Assembly (NCBI RefSeq): GCF_003688415.1
Contig: NZ_REFJ01000003.1
Span: 372,001 to 436,000 of the forward strand
DNA: 64,000 bases
Source: Umboniibacter marinipuniceus
GTDB taxonomy: Bacteria; Pseudomonadota; Gammaproteobacteria; Pseudomonadales; DSM-25080
Direction of reading: 5' to 3'
In this document: piece after piece, positions 13,882 to 25,980 of the stretch
How the letters are laid out: the number at the start of each line of letters is the position of its first letter
Numbering within the stretch: position 1 is the stretch's first letter
Translations under genes and position numbers: made by a program
Notes under the pieces: model-generated
Database searches by the model: none
What the model saw: the letters and a program-made list of their open reading frames with translations, nothing else
What the model was told of the DNA's origin: nothing

Positions 13882-15087
13882 TTAGCCGTGGCGTACCTTA
13901 AACCCTCTATGAAGGCGATAGCAGAACATTGAAGCCGAGGCACTAATAACAATGGTCAGAGCCATATTAGTTTGCACATTAAAAGGCAAAATAGTTGACG
14001 CCGAGCCAATCAACGCGCCCACACCAAAACGAAAGCTACCCACTACCGAAGAGGCCGTGCCCGCCATTGTTGAGTGACGTTGAAGTAATTTCGCCATTAA
14101 ATTGGAGCCTACCATTGTAGTAGCACCAATAATTACCATACAGGGAATCACCACCAGCCAGATAATACCGTCCACGAAAATAGACGGCAGTAACAACATG
14201 GCTCCGAAAAATTGCACATAGAGCCCCCAACGAAGCATATGCGGAGCCCCCTTTCTACCCACAAAACGGCCATTAATAAATGTCAGTATCATCAGCGCGA
14301 CAACATTAAAGGCGAAAAGATAACCTACTTTATCGATGTCGATATCATATAGCTCAATGTAAACATATGAGCCAGAGATCAGAAACGAAAACAAGCAAGC
14401 AAAGCTGAAAGCCCCTGCGCACATCAGCGCGAGACTCACAGGGTCCGCAAAGATCTTGCGATAGTTTCTTAGTGAGCGCCCAATAGCAAGTGGTTGTCGG
14501 TATTCCTTGGCAAGCGTCTCAGGTATGAATAGCATCACTAAGATACAGGCCGCCAACCCCAGTAATGCTAGCGACCAAAAGATGCCTCGCCAACCAAACC
14601 AGAGGGCCACATAACCACCAATGAGCGGCGCAACGAGCGGAGCTAGTGTCATCACCAGAACAATGAAGCTCATCATCCTCGAGAAATCGTCCTGCTCGAA
14701 CATGTCCTTCACAATGGCCGAAATCATTACTCCTGAGGCGGCGCCCGCCACCCCCTGGAGAGACCGCCAGAGATTCAGTTCGCTAATACTTTCGGCACGC
14801 GCGCACAAAATAGCGGTGATGGCGAAGAGAATAGAGCCCACCAGCATAACTCGCCGGCGACCAACGCTATCGGAGATAGGACCAACCACTAGTTGCCCGA
14901 GGGCGAAGCCAACCGAGAATAGCGTAAGCGTTTGCTGTACCTGAGTTGCTGAAGCCTCAAAGGCCAACCCAATTTGAGGAAGCGCAGGCAAGTACATATC
15001 GATGGCCAACGGCGTTAGCGCAGCGATAAATCCGAGTAGCGCAATCAGCGGCCAATTTAGCGCTGGTAGCTGCCGTTGGTTTGACAT
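13882..15087 (-). CDS. Bcr/CflA-family MFS drug exporter
   Basis: An inner-membrane drug:proton antiporter of 401 residues with 12 predicted helices. The first helix ends in TPLAIDMYLPALPQIG, the Bcr/CflA signature, and loop 2-3 has GPISDSVGRRRVMLVGS. LWRSLQGVAGAASGVMISAIV and PLVAPLIGGYV also match the group. The ATG was chosen because GGAG lies seven bases upstream; a TTG two codons earlier is closer to it. Substrates cannot be predicted. Transcription converges with the hslVU-DUF971 operon. It may be co-oriented with the aruIH pair by chance. Confidence 0.88.
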   Translation of the reverse strand: MSNQRQLPALNWPLIALLGFIAALTPLAIDMYLPALPQIGLAFEASATQVQQTLTLFSVGFALGQLVVGPISDSVGRRRVMLVGSILFAITAILCARAESISELNLWRSLQGVAGAASGVMISAIVKDMFEQDDFSRMMSFIVLVMTLAPLVAPLIGGYVALWFGWRGIFWSLALLGLAACILVMLFIPETLAKEYRQPLAIGRSLRNYRKIFADPVSLALMCAGAFSFACLFSFLISGSYVYIELYDIDIDKVGYLFAFNVVALMILTFINGRFVGRKGAPHMLRWGLYVQFFGAMLLLPSIFVDGIIWLVVIPCMVIIGATTMVGSNLMAKLLQRHSTMAGTASSVVGSFRFGVGALIGSASTILPFNVQTNMALTIVISASASMFCYRLHRGFKVRHG

Positions 15088-15139
15088 GTACAAACTCCGT
15101 TCCGTGTTAGCTAAGCCTAATCGAGATTAGGCGTGGGTG

Positions 15140-16318
15140 CTAAGTTTCTGTTTGCCGCAGGTAGAAACGGCTCAATCGCTGAATCGCTCGCTCCATATCA
15201 GCTCGTGACACACAGAAACTCAAGCGAACAAAACCCGAGGCTGAAGTCCCGAAGGCATCCCCGACCAGCACCGAGACCCCTTCTTGATCTAATAACTGTT
15301 CGGCAAAGCCTTGTGCGCTAAGACCGGTTGGCCGAATATCTAACATTAAAAACATGCCCGCTGGCGGAATAAACGGCAAGGGTATACCCGCGGCTCGCAA
15401 AGTCGCCACGGCAACATCGCGTCGAGCGCGGTAAGTCTCTCGCATTACTTGAGTAATGGAAGCATGCTCGCTAAACGCCACTTCGGCTGCACGTTGTATA
15501 AACATTGGCATACCGTAAAGCATACACAACGCCAGATTACTTAGGTGCTCCGCGAGCTGAATTGGCCCGGTTACCCAACCTAAACGCCACCCCGTCATCG
15601 CATGTGACTTAGAGAGCGAGTTAATGGTAATCAAGTGCTGATCGATTCCGTCCAGCTCAAGTGGTAAGACATGTTCACCCTCGTAGACCAACTCACTATA
15701 AACCTCATCTACAATAAGCCATATCTTGTGCGTGACAGCTAGCTGAGCAAGCTTCTGCCAATCCCTCGAAGAGAGCATTGCACCCGTTGGGTTATTAGGT
15801 GTATTAATCACAATGGCGCGAGTGCGCTCATCAATCTTCGACTCGATATCCTCAAGGTCAATCGCCCAATTTCGCTCAGCTTGAAGTGCGGAACCTCGAA
15901 TTTCAGCTTGAGCCGCACGAAATACGGCCTCGTAGGTGATGTACATTGGCTCGGGAATGATGACATTATCGCCTGGCTCAAAGAGACACTGAGCCACACT
16001 GAAGAGGCCGCATTGTGCACCTGCCTGCACCACAATTTGCTCTGTCAAAACAGTACGTTGACGGCGCTTCGATTCCCACTGAGAAATCATTGTTCGAAGC
16101 TCAAGTTCACCCTGGCAATCGGTGTAATGAGACTCATTTTCCTGAATGGACTGGATTGCCGCCGACTTAATTAACGCGGGGGTATCCACATCGGGGTCAC
16201 CCACTGAAAGGACCACGATATCCTCACCGGCCTGTTGACGCGCCATAGCTCGGTAGTGAATATCCCATGCTGCGGCACCTTCGGAGGCAATGCGCTGGGT
16301 CAGACTAGAAAACTTCAT
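15140..16318 (-). CDS. aruH: AruH-like arginine:pyruvate transaminase
   Basis: A 392-residue fold-type I PLP enzyme. FTQRIA-like SSLTQRIASEGAAAWDIHYRA at the N-terminus, YEAVFRA, the PLP-lysine loop NSLSKSHAMTGWRLGW and FLMLDIRPTGLSAQGFAEQLL closely match Pseudomonas AruH as I remember it. AruH transfers the alpha-amino group of L-arginine to pyruvate, giving 2-ketoarginine and alanine. The ATG overlaps the stop of the decarboxylase gene (TAATG), so the two are translationally coupled; a longer frame with 15 more residues lacks support. Generic aspartate-family aminotransferases are the alternative, but the partner gene argues for AruH. Confidence 0.8.
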   Translation of the reverse strand: MKFSSLTQRIASEGAAAWDIHYRAMARQQAGEDIVVLSVGDPDVDTPALIKSAAIQSIQENESHYTDCQGELELRTMISQWESKRRQRTVLTEQIVVQAGAQCGLFSVAQCLFEPGDNVIIPEPMYITYEAVFRAAQAEIRGSALQAERNWAIDLEDIESKIDERTRAIVINTPNNPTGAMLSSRDWQKLAQLAVTHKIWLIVDEVYSELVYEGEHVLPLELDGIDQHLITINSLSKSHAMTGWRLGWVTGPIQLAEHLSNLALCMLYGMPMFIQRAAEVAFSEHASITQVMRETYRARRDVAVATLRAAGIPLPFIPPAGMFLMLDIRPTGLSAQGFAEQLLDQEGVSVLVGDAFGTSASGFVRLSFCVSRADMERAIQRLSRFYLRQTET

Positions 16319-17910
16319 TAATCTCGTTGCTCCAAAGCATTGGCATCTAACTCCACAAACCAACAGCCGGATTCGGCTTGAAGGCGCTGCAACGTTGCCG
16401 CTATCTCACTCATTTGACTGATCTTTTGATAACCAAAATGGTAGCCCCGCGCAAGGAGTTCGAAGTCAGGGTTATGCATCGCGACCGCAACCGGCTCAAT
16501 ATTTCGCAATTCCATGTCGTCCCAAATCTGCCCTAAACGACTGTTATTCCACATCAACACAATGAAACTCTGCTCGGATAGATATTCCGCCGCCGTGGCG
16601 AGCTCATTAATGGTGTATTGCAAACCACCGTCTCCCACTAACACCACCACAGGTAACGGTTCGCCAATCGCGGCGCCAATTGCGCTGGGTAGCGCGTAAC
16701 CCAAGGTCCCGTAGCCCGTTGGGTGGAGCCATTTATTAGGTTGTTCTACCGAATAGAAGATATTTCCAGAGTAAGCCAATTGCGTCATGTCAGTACTGAT
16801 CACAGTGGCCGGCGACAAGCCGTCGCGAATAGCGGCTAACACCTGTTGATGAGATTGATACATCAATGGCAAGTTGTCTTGCAATGCCGCCCTCAATTGT
16901 CTCACCCGCTCCTCAGCCGCCGCCTTTTCTCGGACGGCCAACTGATTATTCAGGGCGCGCAGCGTGATGACCGAGTCGGCTACCATGGCAACCTTGGCGG
17001 GATAAATCCCGGTCATCTTCTCTGGGTCCACATCAATACGAATCAAGTTAGCGCTTATTTCGATGCGGTCGCGCCAGAAGTCCGTATCCGCCAACTCAGT
17101 TCCTACGGCGATCACGCAATCGGCTTCGGCAATCATCTGCCAACCGGGCTCTACACAGAGCAAGGACCCCGCCAGCAGCGAATGAGTGCTTGGTAATACT
17201 CCCTTCGCCGCAACCGAAGTAAACACGGGGGCAGCAATGGTCTCGGCCAGTTGCTGTAATTCCGCCGCCGCGACAACAGCGCCGCCACCGGCGATGATCA
17301 TGGGTTTCTTAGCAGAATTCACTAGTGCTAGCGCGCGTTCCAGCTCTACTAGGTGCGCTGGACGCTGGGGGAGTTCTTTCGCCGTCCACATTTCCGTCAC
17401 AGGCAGTGCTAAGATATCCAATGGCACCTCAATATGCACCGGCCGCGGTCGTGCTGAAGAAAAGATTGCGAAAGCTTGATGAATCAGCTGCTCCGCTTCG
17501 CTGGGAGACGACGCTCTCGCCGATAGCGCCGTCACCGGCCGGGTAAAGTCCAGTTGTTCCTTCGACTCATGCAACCTTCCGGCACCCTTGCCCAAGCTCC
17601 AAGATTCATTAACACTTGAAACCACCAGCATGGGAATTGAATCGGAAAACGCCTGCCCTATCGCGGTGGCAATATTGCTAACGCCAGGTCCGGTAATCAC
17701 GAATGCTACACCCGCCTTCCCAGTGGTTCGCGCATAACCATCAGCCATAAAGCCAGCCCCCTGCTCGTGTCGAGACAGGACGTGGCGGATAGGGGATTCA
17801 GCCAACCCTCTATACAGCTCTAAATTGTGTACGCCGGGAATACCAAAAACGGTATCTACACCGTAGCTTTCCAGTAACTTCACCATCGCCTGACCGCAGT
17901 TTTGCGTCAT
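16318..17910 (-). CDS. aruI: AruI-like 2-ketoarginine decarboxylase (ThDP enzyme)
   Basis: A 530-residue thiamine-diphosphate enzyme of the acetolactate synthase fold. The N-terminal domain has GIPGVHNLELYRGL and catalytic Glu in SRHEQGAGFMADGYAR; the ThDP/Mg site is GDGGLQYTINELATA ending in NNSRLG. The best match is 5-guanidino-2-oxopentanoate decarboxylase (AruI), which turns 2-ketoarginine into 4-guanidinobutanal. Together with AruH it forms the arginine transaminase route. The later enzymes, a dehydrogenase and guanidinobutyrase, are not in the window. It is divergent from an NhaC-family transporter gene 131 bases away. A general acetolactate-synthase-like activity is less likely given the tight pairing. 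Confidence 0.8.
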   Translation of the reverse strand: MTQNCGQAMVKLLESYGVDTVFGIPGVHNLELYRGLAESPIRHVLSRHEQGAGFMADGYARTTGKAGVAFVITGPGVSNIATAIGQAFSDSIPMLVVSSVNESWSLGKGAGRLHESKEQLDFTRPVTALSARASSPSEAEQLIHQAFAIFSSARPRPVHIEVPLDILALPVTEMWTAKELPQRPAHLVELERALALVNSAKKPMIIAGGGAVVAAAELQQLAETIAAPVFTSVAAKGVLPSTHSLLAGSLLCVEPGWQMIAEADCVIAVGTELADTDFWRDRIEISANLIRIDVDPEKMTGIYPAKVAMVADSVITLRALNNQLAVREKAAAEERVRQLRAALQDNLPLMYQSHQQVLAAIRDGLSPATVISTDMTQLAYSGNIFYSVEQPNKWLHPTGYGTLGYALPSAIGAAIGEPLPVVVLVGDGGLQYTINELATAAEYLSEQSFIVLMWNNSRLGQIWDDMELRNIEPVAVAMHNPDFELLARGYHFGYQKISQMSEIAATLQRLQAESGCWFVELDANALEQRD

Positions 17911-18041
17911 GCGTAACTCCTTATCTCTGTAAATATAACGTTTTCAGCTCGTCCAGCTTCTTGGGGCGGGCAAATGTCTTCTCGGCGCTCGATTAATAGC
18001 GGCAAGTATGATTGACTAAAACCAACTATAAGGAAACTGCT

Positions 18042-19505
18042 ATGCCAAGAAAAATAGTCAACGGATGGGACGCCCTATTCATCACGTTGTTGATCATCTT
18101 TTTCATCGGGGGAGCGATTGCCACCTTTGGTGCTGATTCACTCGCGGGCGCTACCCAAGTTGCCCTTTTTTTTAGCGCCATCTGCACCGGTCTAATCGGG
18201 GTTAAGAATGGGCTTAGCTGGGATGACATCGAAGATACCATTGTAGCTACTGTTGGCCGCGCTGTAATGCCCCTGATCATATTTTTAGCGGTTGGTTGCC
18301 TCATTGCTGGATTGATGATTTCCGGAGCTGTCCCAACGCTACTTTATTATGGTTTAGGTATGCTCTCGCCTACCTTCTTCTATCCGCTAGCCTGTTTACT
18401 CACGGCTTTGGTTGCACTGTGTACCGGCAGCTCGTGGACCACGGCGGCTACGGTTGGCGTGGCACTCATTGGCGTAGCGATGGGCTTCGATTTATCACTA
18501 CCGATTGCCGCCGGTGCAATTATTTCTGGTGCGTACTTTGGTGACAAAATGTCACCCCTATCCGAAACGACCAACCTGGCCTCAGCGATAGGCGGTGCGG
18601 ATCTATTCGTTCATATTCGGCATATGATCTGGGTATCCGGCCCCAGCTTTGCTATTAGCCTAGCGGCATTTTTTATGATTGGCCTTGCCTCGGAGCTACC
18701 GGCTGACTTAGGCGACAAGATTGAGCTTATGCAGCGCACCCTGGACCAACAGTTTAACCTCAGTTTACTCAACACACTGCCTATCCTCGCGCTGCTGTAT
18801 ATGAGTTACAAACAACAACCTGCACTACTCGCTATTTCGGCGGGCGTAGGTTTAGCCGTTATCGTCAGCTTCATCACTCAGTACGAGCTAATTCTTCGAA
18901 CCATCACACTACTTTATGGGGCCGATGGTTCCATGCTTATGACCCTATGGAAGGTGATCTACGATGGCTTTTTGATTGAAACGGGAGTTAAAGAACTCGA
19001 TGATCTGCTATCTCGCGGCGGCATGGAGTCAATGGTCTTCATGGTGTGGTTAGTTCTCTGTTCAATGATGCTTTCAGCAACCTTGAGCGCCACCGGTTAT
19101 ATTCAATACCTATTAAATAAGCTGCGCGCCATTATTCGCGGAACTGGCTCGCTCATTGCCACTACGATTGGCACCTCGGTCACCGTTAACATGCTTACCG
19201 GAGACCAATATCTTTCACTGGTACTACCCGGACAGATGTGGAAGGATGAATACGAGAAGCGAGGACTAAAGCCTGAGAACTTAACCCGCACCCTCGAGGA
19301 TGGCGGCACGATTACTTCGCCCTTGGTCCCCTGGGGGGCGTGTGGCGTATTTATGGCCGGCACACTCGGCGTACCAACGCTCGAGTATTTACTATTTTGC
19401 TTCTTCTGTCTGCTCAATCCACTGATTGCCATTTGCTACGGCATCTTCAACATTCGGATTAGCCATCAGAGCTCAGCAACCGAACTAAAACGGGCTAGTT
19501 CCTAA
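18042..19505 (+). CDS. NhaC-family transporter, possibly for arginine-pathway substrates
   Basis: A 487-residue membrane protein with about 12 helices. The motif CTGSSWTTAATVGVALIG and SGAYFGDKMSPLSETTNLAS are hallmarks of the NhaC antiporter superfamily. NhaC members exchange sodium and protons, but others move organic anions or amino acids. The ATG is chosen for its AAGGAA site; an in-frame start ten codons earlier lacks one. Its divergent position beside aruIH suggests uptake of arginine or a related guanidino compound, which is inference only. Confidence 0.8.
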   Translation: MPRKIVNGWDALFITLLIIFFIGGAIATFGADSLAGATQVALFFSAICTGLIGVKNGLSWDDIEDTIVATVGRAVMPLIIFLAVGCLIAGLMISGAVPTLLYYGLGMLSPTFFYPLACLLTALVALCTGSSWTTAATVGVALIGVAMGFDLSLPIAAGAIISGAYFGDKMSPLSETTNLASAIGGADLFVHIRHMIWVSGPSFAISLAAFFMIGLASELPADLGDKIELMQRTLDQQFNLSLLNTLPILALLYMSYKQQPALLAISAGVGLAVIVSFITQYELILRTITLLYGADGSMLMTLWKVIYDGFLIETGVKELDDLLSRGGMESMVFMVWLVLCSMMLSATLSATGYIQYLLNKLRAIIRGTGSLIATTIGTSVTVNMLTGDQYLSLVLPGQMWKDEYEKRGLKPENLTRTLEDGGTITSPLVPWGACGVFMAGTLGVPTLEYLLFCFFCLLNPLIAICYGIFNIRISHQSSATELKRASS

Positions 19506-19817
19506 TTAAAGACTCCTCTCAAGACTCCACTGTTCAGCGCCGTGAACTCCGTCTCGGCGCTGACCTTCAAGGCTAATTTCAACCCGTTGATAAGCTAGAA
19601 GCTGAACCGCTAAAACTTTTCCTTCAAAGCCAGTGTGGAAACGGTCGTACCCGTGAAAATACTTACCACAGGAAACCTTCCAACGTTTTGACTGTCTTAT
19701 CAACAGCACGCTTAGTGTGATAAAATTCACTCAGTTGGCACGCATAAATTTCATTAATAGCGCGCCTTACTAACAACCATCAGGGTTTCATTCACTCGCT
19801 CATACTGGAAGAATAGA
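19506..19817. other. 312-bp gap with an inverted repeat after the NhaC gene
   Basis: No convincing gene is present. TCAGCGCCG and CGGCGCTGA form a perfect 9-bp inverted repeat (19534-19542 and 19555-19563) with a 12-base loop about 30 bases after the transporter stop, so it is the likely terminator although it lacks a T-run. The rest presumably holds the promoter of the following secreted protein. Confidence 0.5.
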
Positions 19818-21974
19818 TTGTTACGCATTGCGCTCTTCAGCTTACTATTTTTATCGCTCCACAGCATTGCTTCCGCCCCTGTGCAGTTGCGGATCATCAG
19901 TACCGGTGATCTAAACGGCCAGCTGCTATCCTATGACTATATCGCTGATCAAGAGACCGATGAATTCGGCCTAGCTCGAGCCGCCACCCTTATTCGAATG
20001 GCAAGGAGCGAATCAGATAACAGCGTAACCGTAGACTCTGGAGATCTACTCAAAGGCAGCCCCATGGCAGCCTGGGCTGCGCAGCAAACTTTCACTCAAG
20101 CAAATGGCGGACATCCCGCCTACCAAGCCCTTGACCACCTAGACTTCAACGCTGCAGCACTGGGAGATAGTGACTTCTATTACGGCCTTGACTATCTGAT
20201 GCACTCGGCATCACTTAGTAATCTGCCTATTGTTAGCGCCAATCTCTATCGCCGCGGTATCAACGGTCAACGCGGCCCACACCTCTTGAAGCCTTGGTAT
20301 ATCGAGTCGCGGCAGCTGCGAGACATCGCCGGAAACATTCATCGTGTCAACATTGGTTACATTGGCTTTACGGATCCCAACTCACTCCGCCAAGACAACG
20401 CGCTGCAATCTCGAGTAGAAACTCGCTCCATCCTCGCGTCAGCTCGTGAAGAACTACCACGATTAAGAGCAGCTGGTGCTGATGTGATTATTGTCCTGGC
20501 TCACACCTCTCTCTCAGCCGTTGACTCGAGTCTGCCCACTCAACGAAACGTCCTTGAGTCACTCGCCAGAGAACCCCTGGTTGATGCCATTATATTCAAT
20601 CAAACTAACGGTAATTTTCCGAACCCAGCTCTGCAAACGCCCTATCGAGTTGACGCCGTTCACGGGAAGATTTTTGGCACACCTGCGGTAGCAACTCAAC
20701 GAGCAGGACAACAAGTAGGTGTGATCGATTTATGGCTTCGCAAGGATCGTGGTAGCTGGACCGTTGGTCGCTCACAGGTAGAGATCCGCTCCGTTCAAAG
20801 ACCTGGCCGAAATGTCGTAGAGTACAAAGGGCTAAGCCTTCGACTAGCCGATGCCCATCGAAAGACTCGCCACTTTGCCAACCGACCCATTGGTAGAACC
20901 AATCAAAGCTTGAGTAGTCTTCTGGCGCAGCTCCAAACGGACACAGCCACTCAGCTGTTACATCAAGTACAACTTGACTATGCCTCCAAGCAGCTCACGC
21001 TAGAGGACTCAACACCGTTGCTATCCTTAGTGTCACCGCCGTTAGTGGGTGATAACGGTAACAATCCAGAGGCTTATACTTGGATTCCTACTGGTGTGGT
21101 AACCTACCGTCAGGCCGCCGGCATCTTTCCTCGCAACGGTAAATTAAACATTGTCCGAGTTCCGCCGGCCTTAGTGGTAGAGGTGTTAGAGTGTTCCGCT
21201 GGTCAATACCTCCAGCTCAGCAGAGCTCGCGATGATGCCCAACCATTACTAAGTAAGGAATTCTCACCGGCAAATTTTGTCGATGTTAGTGGCATGTCCT
21301 ACGAGATAGACCTCTCGAAGTCTCCTCGGTATAGCAATGACTGTGCTGCCTTTTCGGCGCATGACCATCGCATTCGAGTTTCGCCCTATGACCAAGCGCT
21401 ATTTTCACTGGACTCAATCCTCTTGGTTGTTGAGGACAGCCAGCTAGCACGAATTCAACAGAGCTTTCCAAACATTGAGATTGACCTCATTCATCGTGCT
21501 GGTAGCTCCCTACAGGAACAGCTCATTCGAACCTTTGAGGCGGCTAATGTCGCAGGCGTTTCCATTCCACTCGAACAACATTGGCAATTCGCCGCGGTGC
21601 CGTCCTTCTTCCAACTCAACGCCGGCTTTGCAACGCATTCAGACCCGCGTTTTCAACACTATATTGCCGCCAACGCGACACTTAACGCGCGCTATCTAGC
21701 TGTTGGTCCCGACGGCTTCGGCGTGTACCGCTTACAATTTCCTTCGATAGAGCCAAATCTACCCGACACCTACGTGCCATCACCAGAACTGGAATTTGCC
21801 TTACCGCAGATTGCTACCACTATTGAGACGCCTATTGAAGAACAGCGCTCTCGGCATATTGAGGAGCCTGCTTCGTTGCAGCTTGATGGGGTGACGGTGA
21901 AGGCAACGCCGTTAAGATTTAGCCCCGAGGAGCAGATTGAAGTGGGAAGACCTGAAACGCCAGAGGGTGGCTAA
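19818..21974 (+). CDS. CpdB-like periplasmic nucleotidase/phosphodiesterase with degenerate active site
   Basis: A 718-residue protein with a signal peptide (about residues 1-20) that aligns along its length with CpdB, the periplasmic 2',3'-cyclic nucleotide phosphodiesterase/3'-nucleotidase: FGLARAATLIRMAR, GDLLKGSPMA, YYGLDYL, VLAHTSLS, VLECSAGQYLQL. Key metal ligands are changed: DLH is DLN (31-33), GNHE is GDSD (116-119) and GHAH is NQTN (261-264); only Asp76 and His229 remain. It therefore probably cannot bind the usual two metals. The frame is intact, so it looks like a retained non-catalytic protein rather than a pseudogene. A C-terminal extension of about 70 residues follows the usual end. 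TTG start with GGAA upstream. Confidence 0.8.
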   Translation: MLRIALFSLLFLSLHSIASAPVQLRIISTGDLNGQLLSYDYIADQETDEFGLARAATLIRMARSESDNSVTVDSGDLLKGSPMAAWAAQQTFTQANGGHPAYQALDHLDFNAAALGDSDFYYGLDYLMHSASLSNLPIVSANLYRRGINGQRGPHLLKPWYIESRQLRDIAGNIHRVNIGYIGFTDPNSLRQDNALQSRVETRSILASAREELPRLRAAGADVIIVLAHTSLSAVDSSLPTQRNVLESLAREPLVDAIIFNQTNGNFPNPALQTPYRVDAVHGKIFGTPAVATQRAGQQVGVIDLWLRKDRGSWTVGRSQVEIRSVQRPGRNVVEYKGLSLRLADAHRKTRHFANRPIGRTNQSLSSLLAQLQTDTATQLLHQVQLDYASKQLTLEDSTPLLSLVSPPLVGDNGNNPEAYTWIPTGVVTYRQAAGIFPRNGKLNIVRVPPALVVEVLECSAGQYLQLSRARDDAQPLLSKEFSPANFVDVSGMSYEIDLSKSPRYSNDCAAFSAHDHRIRVSPYDQALFSLDSILLVVEDSQLARIQQSFPNIEIDLIHRAGSSLQEQLIRTFEAANVAGVSIPLEQHWQFAAVPSFFQLNAGFATHSDPRFQHYIAANATLNARYLAVGPDGFGVYRLQFPSIEPNLPDTYVPSPELEFALPQIATTIETPIEEQRSRHIEEPASLQLDGVTVKATPLRFSPEEQIEVGRPETPEGG

Positions 21975-22041
21975 TAGGTATCATGGGAAGGTTGTAGCAA
22001 CTAAACACTAAGATACTACAACCCACTTAGCTATACTTAGC

Positions 22042-23499
22042 TCAACTAGCTGCCGGGCGATAGACCGCAACATTTTGATAGCCATCCGCTAACAACTGCT
22101 GAGCATGAAGCCCGCTCATCACGCCACGGTCACAGTAGAGTAAATAACGCTGATTGCTATCGAGCTCAAGAAACTTAGCTGACAGCTCATAGAATGGTAT
22201 TTCCAAGTGTCCTGGGCCAAGATCTATTGGTCGGAGATCAACTTCATCAGGATGACGAATATCAATAATAACTTCATTTACCTCTGCATGATCAACCTCA
22301 GGGGCTTCTTCGTATCCCTCAAGTACGTCATGTACCACGGATTCGATACCCACATTTCGAGCTGAAGCAACAGCCTCTTTCAACACCTCAAAATTAAATC
22401 GCTCTTCCTCAATCTCAACCTTGTGCATCCTAGCGCGAGTAGTTGGATTAACCGATATCACGCCGCAGTATTCAGGGATTGACTTGGAAAACTCCTCGGT
22501 GCCGATGTGTGCCGAAGTACGAATAATTTCAGTCTTATCCATGGTCGCCAGCGGGCGAAGTACGAGCATGTCTGTCACTTGGTCAATAACCGAAAGATTG
22601 CGCAATGTTTGCGAGCTTACCTGAGCAACAGATTCGCCGGTTACTAACGCTTCAATCTCAAGTTGCTCAGCGACCTCTGCTGCCGCGCGAAGCATCATCC
22701 GCTTAAGGATCACACCCATGTAACGATTATTCACATTGGTTAATAGTTCGTCCACTACGCCCTCAAAGGGAATACTGACGAACCGGACTCGATACGAAGA
22801 TCCGAAACGCTCCCAAAGATAGTAAGCGACTTCTTTCACCGCTATTTCGTGAGCCCGGCCACCCAGGTTAAAGAAGCAAAAGTGCGTTGGCATGCCTCGC
22901 TTCATAGTGAGGTAGGTAGATACAGTGGAGTCAAAACCTCCAGAGATGAGACTTAGTACCGGATCCAAGCCGCCAATAGGATAACCACCCAGCCCCTGAA
23001 TAACCTGCTCAACCACAAACAAACGCTTCTTGCGAATCTCTACACGGACCGTTTCGTCTGGATGATGTAAATCAACACCGCCAGTTTCAAGCTTGGCCAG
23101 AATCCCACCGCCGATCTTTTGCTCGGCCTCATGGGAGTTGAAATCATGAGTCCCCACGCGTTTAACACGCACAACAAAGGTCTTGTCACGCAGGCGCTCT
23201 CGGTTTACTTCGGCTACCTTCTCAATAGTGTCATCTAAGTCGACAAACTCGTATTCCTTAACCACGATGAAATTAGCGATACCGGCGATATGCGCCAGCA
23301 CATCGATCATCTCTCGCCCTTTAACCTCATCAACATCCGTAAAGATGTCTAATTTGTCCCAAGTACTTTTAACCACCACGCTGCGGTCAATCAACTTTAA
23401 CGAGCGCGTAATATTGGTTCGGAGCTTGGCGATCAGCTGCTTTCGAACAGGCTTACTTTTAATGGTGATTTCGGGGAATAGCTTAACGACGAATTGCAT
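22042..23499 (-). CDS. thiI: tRNA 4-thiouridine synthase ThiI with rhodanese domain
   Basis: A 485-residue enzyme that makes s4U8 in tRNA and supplies sulfur for thiamine thiazole. It has a ferredoxin-like/THUMP N-terminal half, the PP-loop SGGFDSTVSTYL (near residue 188), which adenylates U8, and a C-terminal rhodanese domain with active-site Cys in YLLYCDRGVMSG. The presence of the rhodanese domain means that it can carry the persulfide itself, as in E. coli (482 residues). It is divergent from glnA, an arrangement common in related genera. Confidence 0.96.
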   Translation of the reverse strand: MQFVVKLFPEITIKSKPVRKQLIAKLRTNITRSLKLIDRSVVVKSTWDKLDIFTDVDEVKGREMIDVLAHIAGIANFIVVKEYEFVDLDDTIEKVAEVNRERLRDKTFVVRVKRVGTHDFNSHEAEQKIGGGILAKLETGGVDLHHPDETVRVEIRKKRLFVVEQVIQGLGGYPIGGLDPVLSLISGGFDSTVSTYLTMKRGMPTHFCFFNLGGRAHEIAVKEVAYYLWERFGSSYRVRFVSIPFEGVVDELLTNVNNRYMGVILKRMMLRAAAEVAEQLEIEALVTGESVAQVSSQTLRNLSVIDQVTDMLVLRPLATMDKTEIIRTSAHIGTEEFSKSIPEYCGVISVNPTTRARMHKVEIEEERFNFEVLKEAVASARNVGIESVVHDVLEGYEEAPEVDHAEVNEVIIDIRHPDEVDLRPIDLGPGHLEIPFYELSAKFLELDSNQRYLLYCDRGVMSGLHAQQLLADGYQNVAVYRPAAS

Positions 23500-23613
23500 G
23501 ATGAACCTGACCGTAAAAAATATTTTCTAATTATAAGTGCAAGTCTGCCAAAGCACACGCCCAAGTGGCATAAATGTCAGTTTAGACTAAGGAATTAAGC
23601 ACTCTCGCCTCAA

Positions 23614-23630
23614 CGCACTATAATGGTGCA
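23614..23630 (+). promoter_or_regulatory. NtrC-binding site 1 upstream of glnA
   Basis: CGCACTATAATGGTGCA matches the NtrC dyad TGCACC-N5-GGTGCA at most positions, with a perfect right half. It is about 107 bases upstream of the -24 element and 44 bases from the second site, so the two centres are on a similar helix face. Confidence 0.7.
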
Positions 23631-23657
23631 AATTAGGGATCATGCAGCGCCTTGCAA

Positions 23658-23674
23658 TGCACCAATATAGTGCA
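23658..23674 (+). promoter_or_regulatory. NtrC-binding site 2 upstream of glnA
   Basis: TGCACCAATATAGTGCA has a perfect left half and one mismatch in the right half of the NtrC dyad. The pair of sites upstream of a sigma-54 promoter is the textbook enhancer arrangement for glnA. Confidence 0.75.
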
Positions 23675-23736
23675 TTAGCAATCTACATTCTCGTAGATGC
23701 AAGCTGCACACCCCAAAATTACGCGCTTGCCACAAC

Positions 23737-23752
23737 TGGCACGCTAATTGCT
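23737..23752 (+). promoter_or_regulatory. Sigma-54 (-24/-12) promoter of glnA
   Basis: TGGCACGCTAATTGCT has GG and GC at the required spacing and fits TGGCAC-N5-TTGCW exactly. It lies about 100 bases upstream of the glnA ATG, downstream of two NtrC boxes. Confidence 0.9.
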
Positions 23753-23850
23753 TTAATGCGTAGCAACAATATTAAAATAAACCAAAAAGAAGGTGTGTTG
23801 GACTAACCCTCTAATCATCTTGGTTCGCCTTTATCCATTCGGAGGAATTT

Positions 23851-25257
23851 ATGGCAGATAACACTTTAGGTCTCATTAAAGAGCATGACGTAACTTGGAT
23901 CGATCTACGTTTTACGGATACTCACGGCAAAGAGCAGCACGTCTCTATCCCTGTAACCGAATTGAACGATGACTTCTTCACAGAAGGTAAAATGTTCGAC
24001 GGCTCTTCAATTGCTGGCTGGAAGGGCATTAACGAATCAGACATGATCCTTATGCCTGACGATAGCTCTGCTGTAATGGACCCGTTCACTGACGAACCTA
24101 CCCTAATTATTCGTTGTGACATTGTTGAGCCTAACACTGGGCAAGGTTACGAGCGCGACCCACGTTCTGTTGCAAAGCGCGCTGAAGCTTACCTAGAAAG
24201 CACCGGTCTTGGCGACACTGCTTACTTCGGACCAGAGCCTGAATTCTTCGTATTCGACGGCATTCGCTGGAACGACAGCATGAGCGGTTGTTTCTACGAG
24301 ATCGAATCAGAAGAAGCAGCTTGGAACAGCGGCAAAAACTACGAAGGCGGTAACATGGGCCACCGTCCTGGTGTTAAGGGCGGTTACTTCCCAGTAGCAC
24401 CTGTTGACTCACTGCATGATATCCGTGCTGCGATGTGTTCAGCTATGACAGCTATGGGCCTAGAAGTTGAAGTACACCACCACGAAGTTGGTACCGCTGG
24501 TCAGTGTGAAATCGGTGTTCGTTTCAACACGCTAGTTCGCAAGGCTGATGAAGTTCAAATGCTTAAGTACTGTGTTCACAACGTTGCGCATGCATACGGC
24601 AAGACAGCTACTTTCATGCCTAAGCCGGTAGTTGGCGACAACGGTTCTGGTATGCACTTGCACCAGTCGTTCTCTAAAGACGGCGTTAACCAGTTCGCTG
24701 GTGATGAGTACGCGGGACTATCTGAAACTGCTCTTTACTACATTGGCGGTATCATCAAGCACGCTAAAGCACTTAACGCTTTCGCAAACGCTTCAACTAA
24801 CTCGTACAAGCGTCTTGTACCGGGCTTTGAAGCGCCGGTTATGCTTGCTTACTCAGCACGTAACCGCTCTGCATCTATTCGTATTCCTTTCGTACCTAGC
24901 CCGAAGGCTAAGCGTGTAGAAGTTCGTTTCGGTGACCCAACAGCTAACCCATACCTCATGTTCTCAGCAATGTTGATGGCTGGCCTTGACGGCATTAAGA
25001 ACAAGATCCACCCTGGCGATGCAGCTGACAAAGATCTTTACGATCTTCCACCAGAAGAAGCAGCGGCTTACCCGACTGTTGCTGGTAGCTTCGACGAAGC
25101 ACTTGCTGCCCTCGACGCGGATCGTGATTTCTTGACGGCCGGTGGCGTATTCACCAACGACATGATCGATGCATTCATCGAGCTTAAGAATGAGGAAGTG
25201 ACTCGCCTAGCGATGACTCCACACCCTGTTGAGTTTGACATGTACTACTCAGTATAA
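23851..25257 (+). CDS. glnA: Glutamine synthetase type I
   Basis: A 468-residue dodecameric enzyme that joins ammonia to glutamate with [20 protein letters not shown], the ATP-site MHLHQSF, and NRSASIRIP are standard. The adenylylation Tyr lies in [11 protein letters not shown], so it should be switched by GlnE. Codons here look more strongly biased than in neighbouring genes, as expected of a highly expressed enzyme. GGAGGAATTT precedes the ATG. It has a sigma-54 promoter with two NtrC sites upstream and a strong terminator downstream. Confidence 0.98.
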
Positions 25258-25422: not shown

Positions 25423-25980
25423 ATGAGTCGCTCCCTTTGCCTGTTGTTAATCGTTATTTCATGCACCTTCTGTGCCATGACGACCTCTGCTGATATCTAT
25501 AAATATCGCGATGCCAACGGCAATATTGTCTACTCTGATACCCCAGTCGAAGGTGCAGAGCGGGTAGACATAGTAGTTTACAACCCTGCTACACCCGGCG
25601 AATCCACCGCTCAGCAGGAGTCTTCAGCCAGTTCACCTCATACTACTCAAGATGATGAGCCGGTGAGCTATAGCTTGGCAATTACTAGCCCCGTACACGA
25701 CTCAACCGTACCTATGGGACAGGAAACGCTCTCGGTCAGTCTTGCGCTCACACCATCCGCACCAGTCGAGACCACTTACCGTCTTCTGGCTAACGGCTCC
25801 CCCATTGCCCAAGGAAATCAAAATACCTTTGTCTTAGAGCAACTCTACCGCGGGGAGTTGGTATTAACGGCGGAAGCACTAGACAGCGATGGCGAAGTCA
25901 TCGCAACGGCAATAGCGGTAACCGTTCACGTGAAGCGGGCAAGTCGACGAATAACTAATTTACCCACCGGCGGAAGTTAA
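25423..25980 (+). CDS. DUF4124 exported protein between glnA and ntrB
   Basis: A 185-residue protein with a signal peptide (cut near TTSA-D). A DUF4124 domain follows at once (DIYKYRDANGNIVYSDTPVEGA), then a Ser/Thr-rich linker and a beta-rich Ig-like region (ITSPVHDSTVPMGQETLSVSL ... YRLLANGSPIAQG). DUF4124 is a short, probably periplasmic or envelope module of unknown role. Genes of this type often lie between glnA and ntrB in gammaproteobacteria, but no nitrogen function has been shown to my knowledge. Confidence 0.8.
   Translation: MSRSLCLLLIVISCTFCAMTTSADIYKYRDANGNIVYSDTPVEGAERVDIVVYNPATPGESTAQQESSASSPHTTQDDEPVSYSLAITSPVHDSTVPMGQETLSVSLALTPSAPVETTYRLLANGSPIAQGNQNTFVLEQLYRGELVLTAEALDSDGEVIATAIAVTVHVKRASRRITNLPTGGS

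Follow-up and report, generated by a model that had tools for sequence, protein, structure and literature searches.

A CpdB homologue stripped of its catalytic residues is maintained by selection in one bacterial genus, probably as a periplasmic binding or scaffold protein

The gene at positions 19818-21974 (+) of the window (the whole 64-kb stretch of DNA that was analysed) encodes a homologue of CpdB, the 2′,3′-cyclic-nucleotide phosphodiesterase/3′-nucleotidase. Its catalytic residues have been lost while purifying selection on the protein continues, the combination by which a functional pseudoenzyme is recognised. The same losses were found in the orthologue of a congeneric species, and the combined loss was seen in no other relative sampled; by its sequence the gene is a lineage-restricted, selected pseudoenzyme. 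The reading that we favour, with a probability of about 0.72, is that this CpdB has been without catalysis or nucleotide binding since the stem of one genus and has been kept for another job as a periplasmic binding or scaffold protein.

The reading frame was open over all 718 codons, as the earlier note on this DNA had described, and begins with TTG. A Shine-Dalgarno-like GGAAG was located 6 nt 5′ of the TTG (19807-19811, +) and a similar GGAAA was present in the sister species (G002), the orthologue of which (L002, 1498-3651) was 73% identical; the TTG start and an upstream GGAA(G) are common to both species. Residues 1-18 (19818-19871, +) were assigned by eye to a Sec signal peptide, with the predicted cut falling between SIA and S in the window protein and between AFA and T in the sister species. 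The 718-residue product is probably exported through this signal to the periplasm. The signal is followed by a metallophosphoesterase-type N domain (residues 21-345; 19878-20852, +), which was aligned to 3jyf, 5eqv and 3gve, the closest solved chains and, judging by their length, N-domain constructs. A 5′-nucleotidase-type C domain comes next (residues 346-641; 20853-21740, +), the borders of both domains having been chosen by us, and an acidic, proline-rich C-terminal tail completes the protein (residues 642-718; 21741-21971, +).

Homology to CpdB was evident from comparison of profiles. When aligned by hhalign against seven CpdB sequences, residues 14-642 matched with a probability of 100 (E 8.6e-78), and the best curated model, the CpdB equivalog NF006938, matched residues 12-641, so that the two-domain CpdB architecture was covered over its full length. 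The cut-offs of the curated models were not reached: NF006938 scored 408 bits (cut-off 486) and TIGR01390 363.7 bits (cut-off 883), and the Pfam families Metallophos (PF00149) and 5_nucleotid_C (PF02872) scored 14 and 20.5 bits, below their gathering cut-offs of 21.5 and 23.6. The protein is a CpdB homologue that fails the curated membership scores. The earlier statement that CpdB is followed throughout is correct within residues 14-642 and fails for the last 76-77 residues, which have no CpdB counterpart. This tail of 77 residues matched no Pfam family above cut-off (best Nop10p, E 0.11), occurred only with the pseudoenzyme gene in genomes G000 and G002, and was not found as a second copy in either. 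Structure prediction by AlphaFold2 from a three-sequence alignment (P0001, L043 and the partial L072) gave an unusable model (pLDDT 36.5), and the fold assignment therefore rests on sequence homology.

Active-site residues were read from an alignment of the protein with 45 homologues in addition to E. coli K-12 CpdB and are given in E. coli numbering. The metal-ligand pattern of this fold is D-x-H, D, N, H, H-x-H, the same seven-residue pattern that is given for PolD DP1 in the excerpted text of PMC4996933. At CpdB positions 31, 33, 76, 116, 117, 118, 225, 257 and 259 the window protein carries D, N, D, D, S, D, H, Q and N, and the sister protein D, N, D, E, A, D, H, Q and N. Three of the seven metal ligands are kept (D31, D76 and H225) and four are replaced (H33N, N116D, H257Q and H259N); the catalytic H117 has become S in the window and A in the sister species, and E118 is D in both. 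The replacements lie in DLN for DLH (19908-19916, +), where D31 is kept, in GDSD for GNHE (20163-20174, +; GEAD in the sister species) and in NQTN for GHAH (20598-20609, +; NQPN in the sister species). The bridging D76 is kept in DSGD (20034-20045, +), and the kept ligand H225 of CpdB is H229 of the window protein (20502-20504, +). The alignment agrees with the earlier note on these three motifs and on the five metal or catalytic residues replaced, and adds E118D. Overlooked there was the loss of the substrate-binding tyrosines: base-stacking Y440 is replaced by R439 (21132-21134, +) and base-stacking Y544 by Q542 (21441-21443, +), the sister species carrying H and Q. Neighbours of these tyrosines in CpdB, namely N442, N542, N543, R545 and G549, are also replaced. 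Losses at H117, at the ligands and at both stacking tyrosines would affect both halves of CpdB function.

A census of relatives was compiled from 390 genomes of the order, 369 of the class and 398 of the phylum, together with E. coli and one Bacillota locus. In the order, 41 genomes gave a match at E ≤ 1e-20, and two of them belong to the genus; the class yielded 6 matching genomes and the phylum 90. The three genome sets overlap and each was drawn from a larger group. Removal of UshA-like loci and duplicates left 146 rows, some of them close kin, besides the two degenerate ones. D76, N116, H117, H225, H257 and H259 were intact in all 146 rows, and D31 and H33 in all 144 rows that reach them (L054 and L055 are cut before both). 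The functional positions varied only by E118D and by replacement of the tyrosines; both tyrosine positions were Y or F in the other rows, apart from L152, which has H at 544, and L054, which was unread at 544. The combined loss in the window protein is more than chance.

Both degenerate rows come from one genus, the family of which is represented by three genomes in the sample. The only orthologue found was that of the congeneric G002, with the same losses in slightly different letters, and an assembly error was rejected since a second congeneric genome carries these losses. The gene was not matched in a third species (G001), in which contig C84 (4406 bases) ends inside nhaC on the expected side, thiI was likewise not found and the assembly is 87% complete; the locus therefore probably lies in a gap, and absence was not concluded. 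No closer relative was seen outside the genus: the highest identities listed were 33% in the order and 31% in the class, identity did not exceed 32% in any row of the joint alignment outside the genus, and the best identities were 30.6% among the 10 of 59 plasmid records listed and 30.2% among the phage records, of which all 8 were listed. The phylum-level survey was a profile search, which yields no identities. Scanning of genome contigs with two clade-specific peptide patterns recovered one canonical relative (31%) and carries little information on distant forms. In viral contigs the clade query recovered no relative, and a canonical CpdB query recovered four distant or partial ones. Among the matches listed in the open-licence literature no described CpdB-family pseudoenzyme was found; the inactive proteins described in the accessible part of PMC12943098 are HD-GYP proteins and not CpdB.

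Losses were not confined to the known sites. Sixty-four columns were at least 95% identical over the 146 rows, and 39 of the 64 are kept in both species. Small or hydrophobic invariant columns were kept more often (25/34) than polar or Tyr columns (14/30; Fisher p 0.04), and functional columns were numerically less often kept (3 of 9) than the others (36 of 55). Polar losses beyond the listed ligands include Q79, D85, E238 and R568. Though concentrated at the known sites, the loss extends beyond them, and general divergence explains part of it. As a separate observation, L042, L173, L174 and related class-level rows formed a divergent CpdB-like group in which the active sites are intact; 77% of the otherwise invariant columns are retained in L042, and the G893 locus L174 scored 132 bits with the A1 profile. 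This group possibly represents a separate specificity.

The window protein also carries C459 (21192-21194, +) and C509 (21342-21344, +), which correspond to positions 460 and 511 of E. coli CpdB and would be joined in a structural disulphide. Both cysteines were present in 48 of 148 rows (46 of the 146 canonical rows and both pseudoenzyme rows) and neither in the remaining 100; one was never found without the other. This pattern suggests a disulphide that marks one CpdB branch, and its occurrence here points to an origin within the E. coli-like branch that bears these cysteines. A quick IQ-TREE tree grouped the two species with E. coli-type CpdB (SH-aLRT 99, 14 rows), a result that came with warnings of long branches and unusual composition for both rows and with the fuller search unfinished. 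FastTree placed them beside 11 divergent rows (support 0.65), which may be due to long-branch attraction. The cysteine pair agrees with the IQ-TREE placement and not with that of FastTree, and the family placement differs between the two trees.

Selection on the gene was estimated by a pairwise codon-model fit of the window sequence against G002, which gave a dN of 0.183, a dS of 2.07 and an omega of 0.088 (95% grid 0.07-0.10). With two clade sequences only and a saturated dS of about 2, this omega is an averaged value whose denominator is soft. An omega of 1 was strongly rejected (2ΔlnL = 510). By part of the protein, omega was 0.048 in the N domain, 0.105 in the C domain and 0.17 in the tail, for which the interval is wide (95% grid 0.01-0.3); the N domain, the site of the lost catalytic residues, is more constrained than the C domain, although these values too are softened by the saturated dS.

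Fast evolution of the kind expected from a decaying pseudogene was indeed observed. Among the 26 orthologue pairs of the syntenic stretch the gene ranked first in dN and second in omega, and the flanking NhaC-type and ThiI-like products were 94% and 96% identical to their G002 counterparts. No inner branch of the FastTree tree was longer than the stem of the pair (2.09, median 0.07), and in the quick IQ-TREE tree this stem measured 5.1. Decay can nevertheless hardly be the explanation. In 200 neutral simulations at the same divergence, with substitutions only, every run ended with 13 stops or more and with an identity no higher than 11%, and at 0.30 substitutions per site there were at least 5 stops, as compared with no stops and 73% identity observed at saturating divergence; the start codon is also kept. 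Pseudogene decay was rejected on omega and the absence of stops, and this rejection holds unless dS is grossly misestimated. The dN/dS check that the earlier note had proposed gave a value far from one. Its view that selection keeps the fold without the usual chemistry is supported as to selection by omega, by the intact frame and by the same loss in two species, the part concerning the fold coming from sequence homology. The simplest history would be a burst of change upon loss of the old function, followed by constraint under a new one.

The former active site could still bind metal, having been retuned from a His-rich site for a transition metal to oxygen ligands for Mg2+ or Ca2+, with a structural role or a new catalytic role independent of H117. 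D31, D76 and H225 are kept, and all four replaced ligands have become Asn, Asp/Glu or Gln, which are oxygen donors, in both species; among the other polar invariant columns that were lost, this was so for 3 of 12 (p 0.019 in a one-sided Fisher test, which was post hoc and involves four positions). Exchanges of H to N or Q and of N to D are common in general, which counts against retuning. Of the 24 invariant columns changed in the window, 19 carried the same residue in the sister protein, barely above the protein average of 73%. D76, D119, H229 and N264 of the window protein use different synonymous codons in the two species, as is expected if the residues are held at the protein level, but the codons for N33 and Q262 are identical in both and hence uninformative. 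A comparable Asn-to-Asp ligand change, with no catalytic His, occurs in human Vps29 according to the available portion of PMC2674652. Taken together, a retuned metal site seems unlikely; the earlier proposal of a new metal site has the four oxygen donors in its favour, on support that is post hoc and weak. Slightly more doubtful is a fuller version in which the His-rich dimetal centre was rebuilt as an oxygen-ligand site of Ca2+/Mg2+ type, making the secreted protein a nucleotide-independent, cation-dependent periplasmic scaffold or receptor of one genus under CRP control.

A receptor that binds nucleotides or nucleosides without cutting them, as the earlier note had supposed, would fit the retention of the C domain and the descent from a nucleotide enzyme. 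The base sandwich formed by Y440 and Y544 is, however, now R/H and Q/Q in the two species and the neighbouring residues listed above are replaced with it, and in CpdB the single substitution Y544A raised the KM 60-fold. These replacements disfavour the idea, which we consider quite improbable. Weak and broad residual phosphodiesterase activity is given even less credence. Three ligands remain, and E. coli CpdB H117A retains some measurable activity on bis-4-NPP and 2′,3′-cAMP, so that zero activity of the window protein is not certain; but H117 and four ligands are gone together here, and 0 of the 146 relatives had even one such loss where it could be read.

The preferred reading remains that of a periplasmic pseudoenzyme. 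CpdB would have lost catalysis and nucleotide binding on the genus stem, and the protein would be exported by its Sec signal with the two-domain CpdB fold and the disulphide retained. In the periplasm it would bind a partner, which could be a protein, a glycan or a small ligand, within the cleft of the former active site or close to it, without hydrolysis.

Upstream of the gene, a CRP-like palindrome TGTGA-N6-TCACT was located at 19716-19731 (+) and aligned with a perfect TGTGA-N6-TCACA in G002 (L050, 10630-10645). CRP-like sites within one mismatch were about as frequent in the 64 kb as expected (2 found, 1.63 expected), and the genome encodes CRP (357 bits, cut-off 266). The position of the site, its preservation in a spacer of patchy conservation and the presence of the CRP gene are no more than suggestive of CRP control. 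Rfam models matched nothing at the gathering threshold in 19000-23900, and a promoter and terminator scan gave sites no more numerous than in shuffled sequence.

In both species the gene sits between an NhaC-type antiporter gene (18012-19505, +; TIGR00931, 397 bits, cut-off 370) and a convergent gene that we take to be ThiI-like (22042-23499, -), and no gene pointing to a partner was found among the neighbours at the locus in either species. Elsewhere in the window, divergent from the antiporter gene, a cluster at 13882-17910 (-) encodes an MFS transporter, an aminotransferase and a TPP enzyme. The TPP enzyme scores 670.7 bits with the NCBIfam model for 5-guanidino-2-oxopentanoate decarboxylase, above the cut-off of 500, and the gene order is kept in G002; the cluster may be an arginine transaminase pathway with its transporter. 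A small, apparently secreted protein is encoded at 25423-25980 (+), between genes presumed to be glnA-like and ntrB-like, and had the second highest dN of the 26 pairs (0.164).

Annotation by similarity would probably label the gene a CpdB nucleotidase. In its own genome the gene was the sole match at E ≤ 0.001 to TIGR01390 and to PF02872, and a metabolic model could therefore wrongly credit the organism with CpdB activity. The gene would also be a clear example of a secreted bacterial metallophosphoesterase still under selection after the loss of its catalytic and specificity sites.

Compared with CpdB itself (structures 3jyf and 5eqv), the window protein shares the two-domain architecture, the signal peptide, three of seven ligands and the cysteine pair of the E. 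coli enzyme, but has lost the catalytic His together with four ligands and both base-stacking tyrosines, is about 30% identical, carries the extra tail and scores under the curated cut-offs. UshA 5′-nucleotidase shares the two-domain plan and was matched weakly (1ush, E 1.5e-4); it is far more distant than CpdB and is an active enzyme. The closest precedent in logic is Vps29, which is cytosolic and has a single domain. As described in the portion of PMC2674652 noted above, Vps29 is a non-enzymatic metallophosphoesterase fold that lacks the catalytic His of GNH[DE] and has an Asn-to-Asp change at a metal ligand; it is a eukaryotic retromer subunit of a different family, and the analogy is one of logic. 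Similarly, according to the excerpts of PMC4187176 and PMC4996933, the B subunits of eukaryotic replicative DNA polymerases have a calcineurin-like phosphoesterase fold with the catalytic residues replaced and act as regulatory subunits. They belong to an unrelated subfamily and, unlike the window protein, have a known partner.
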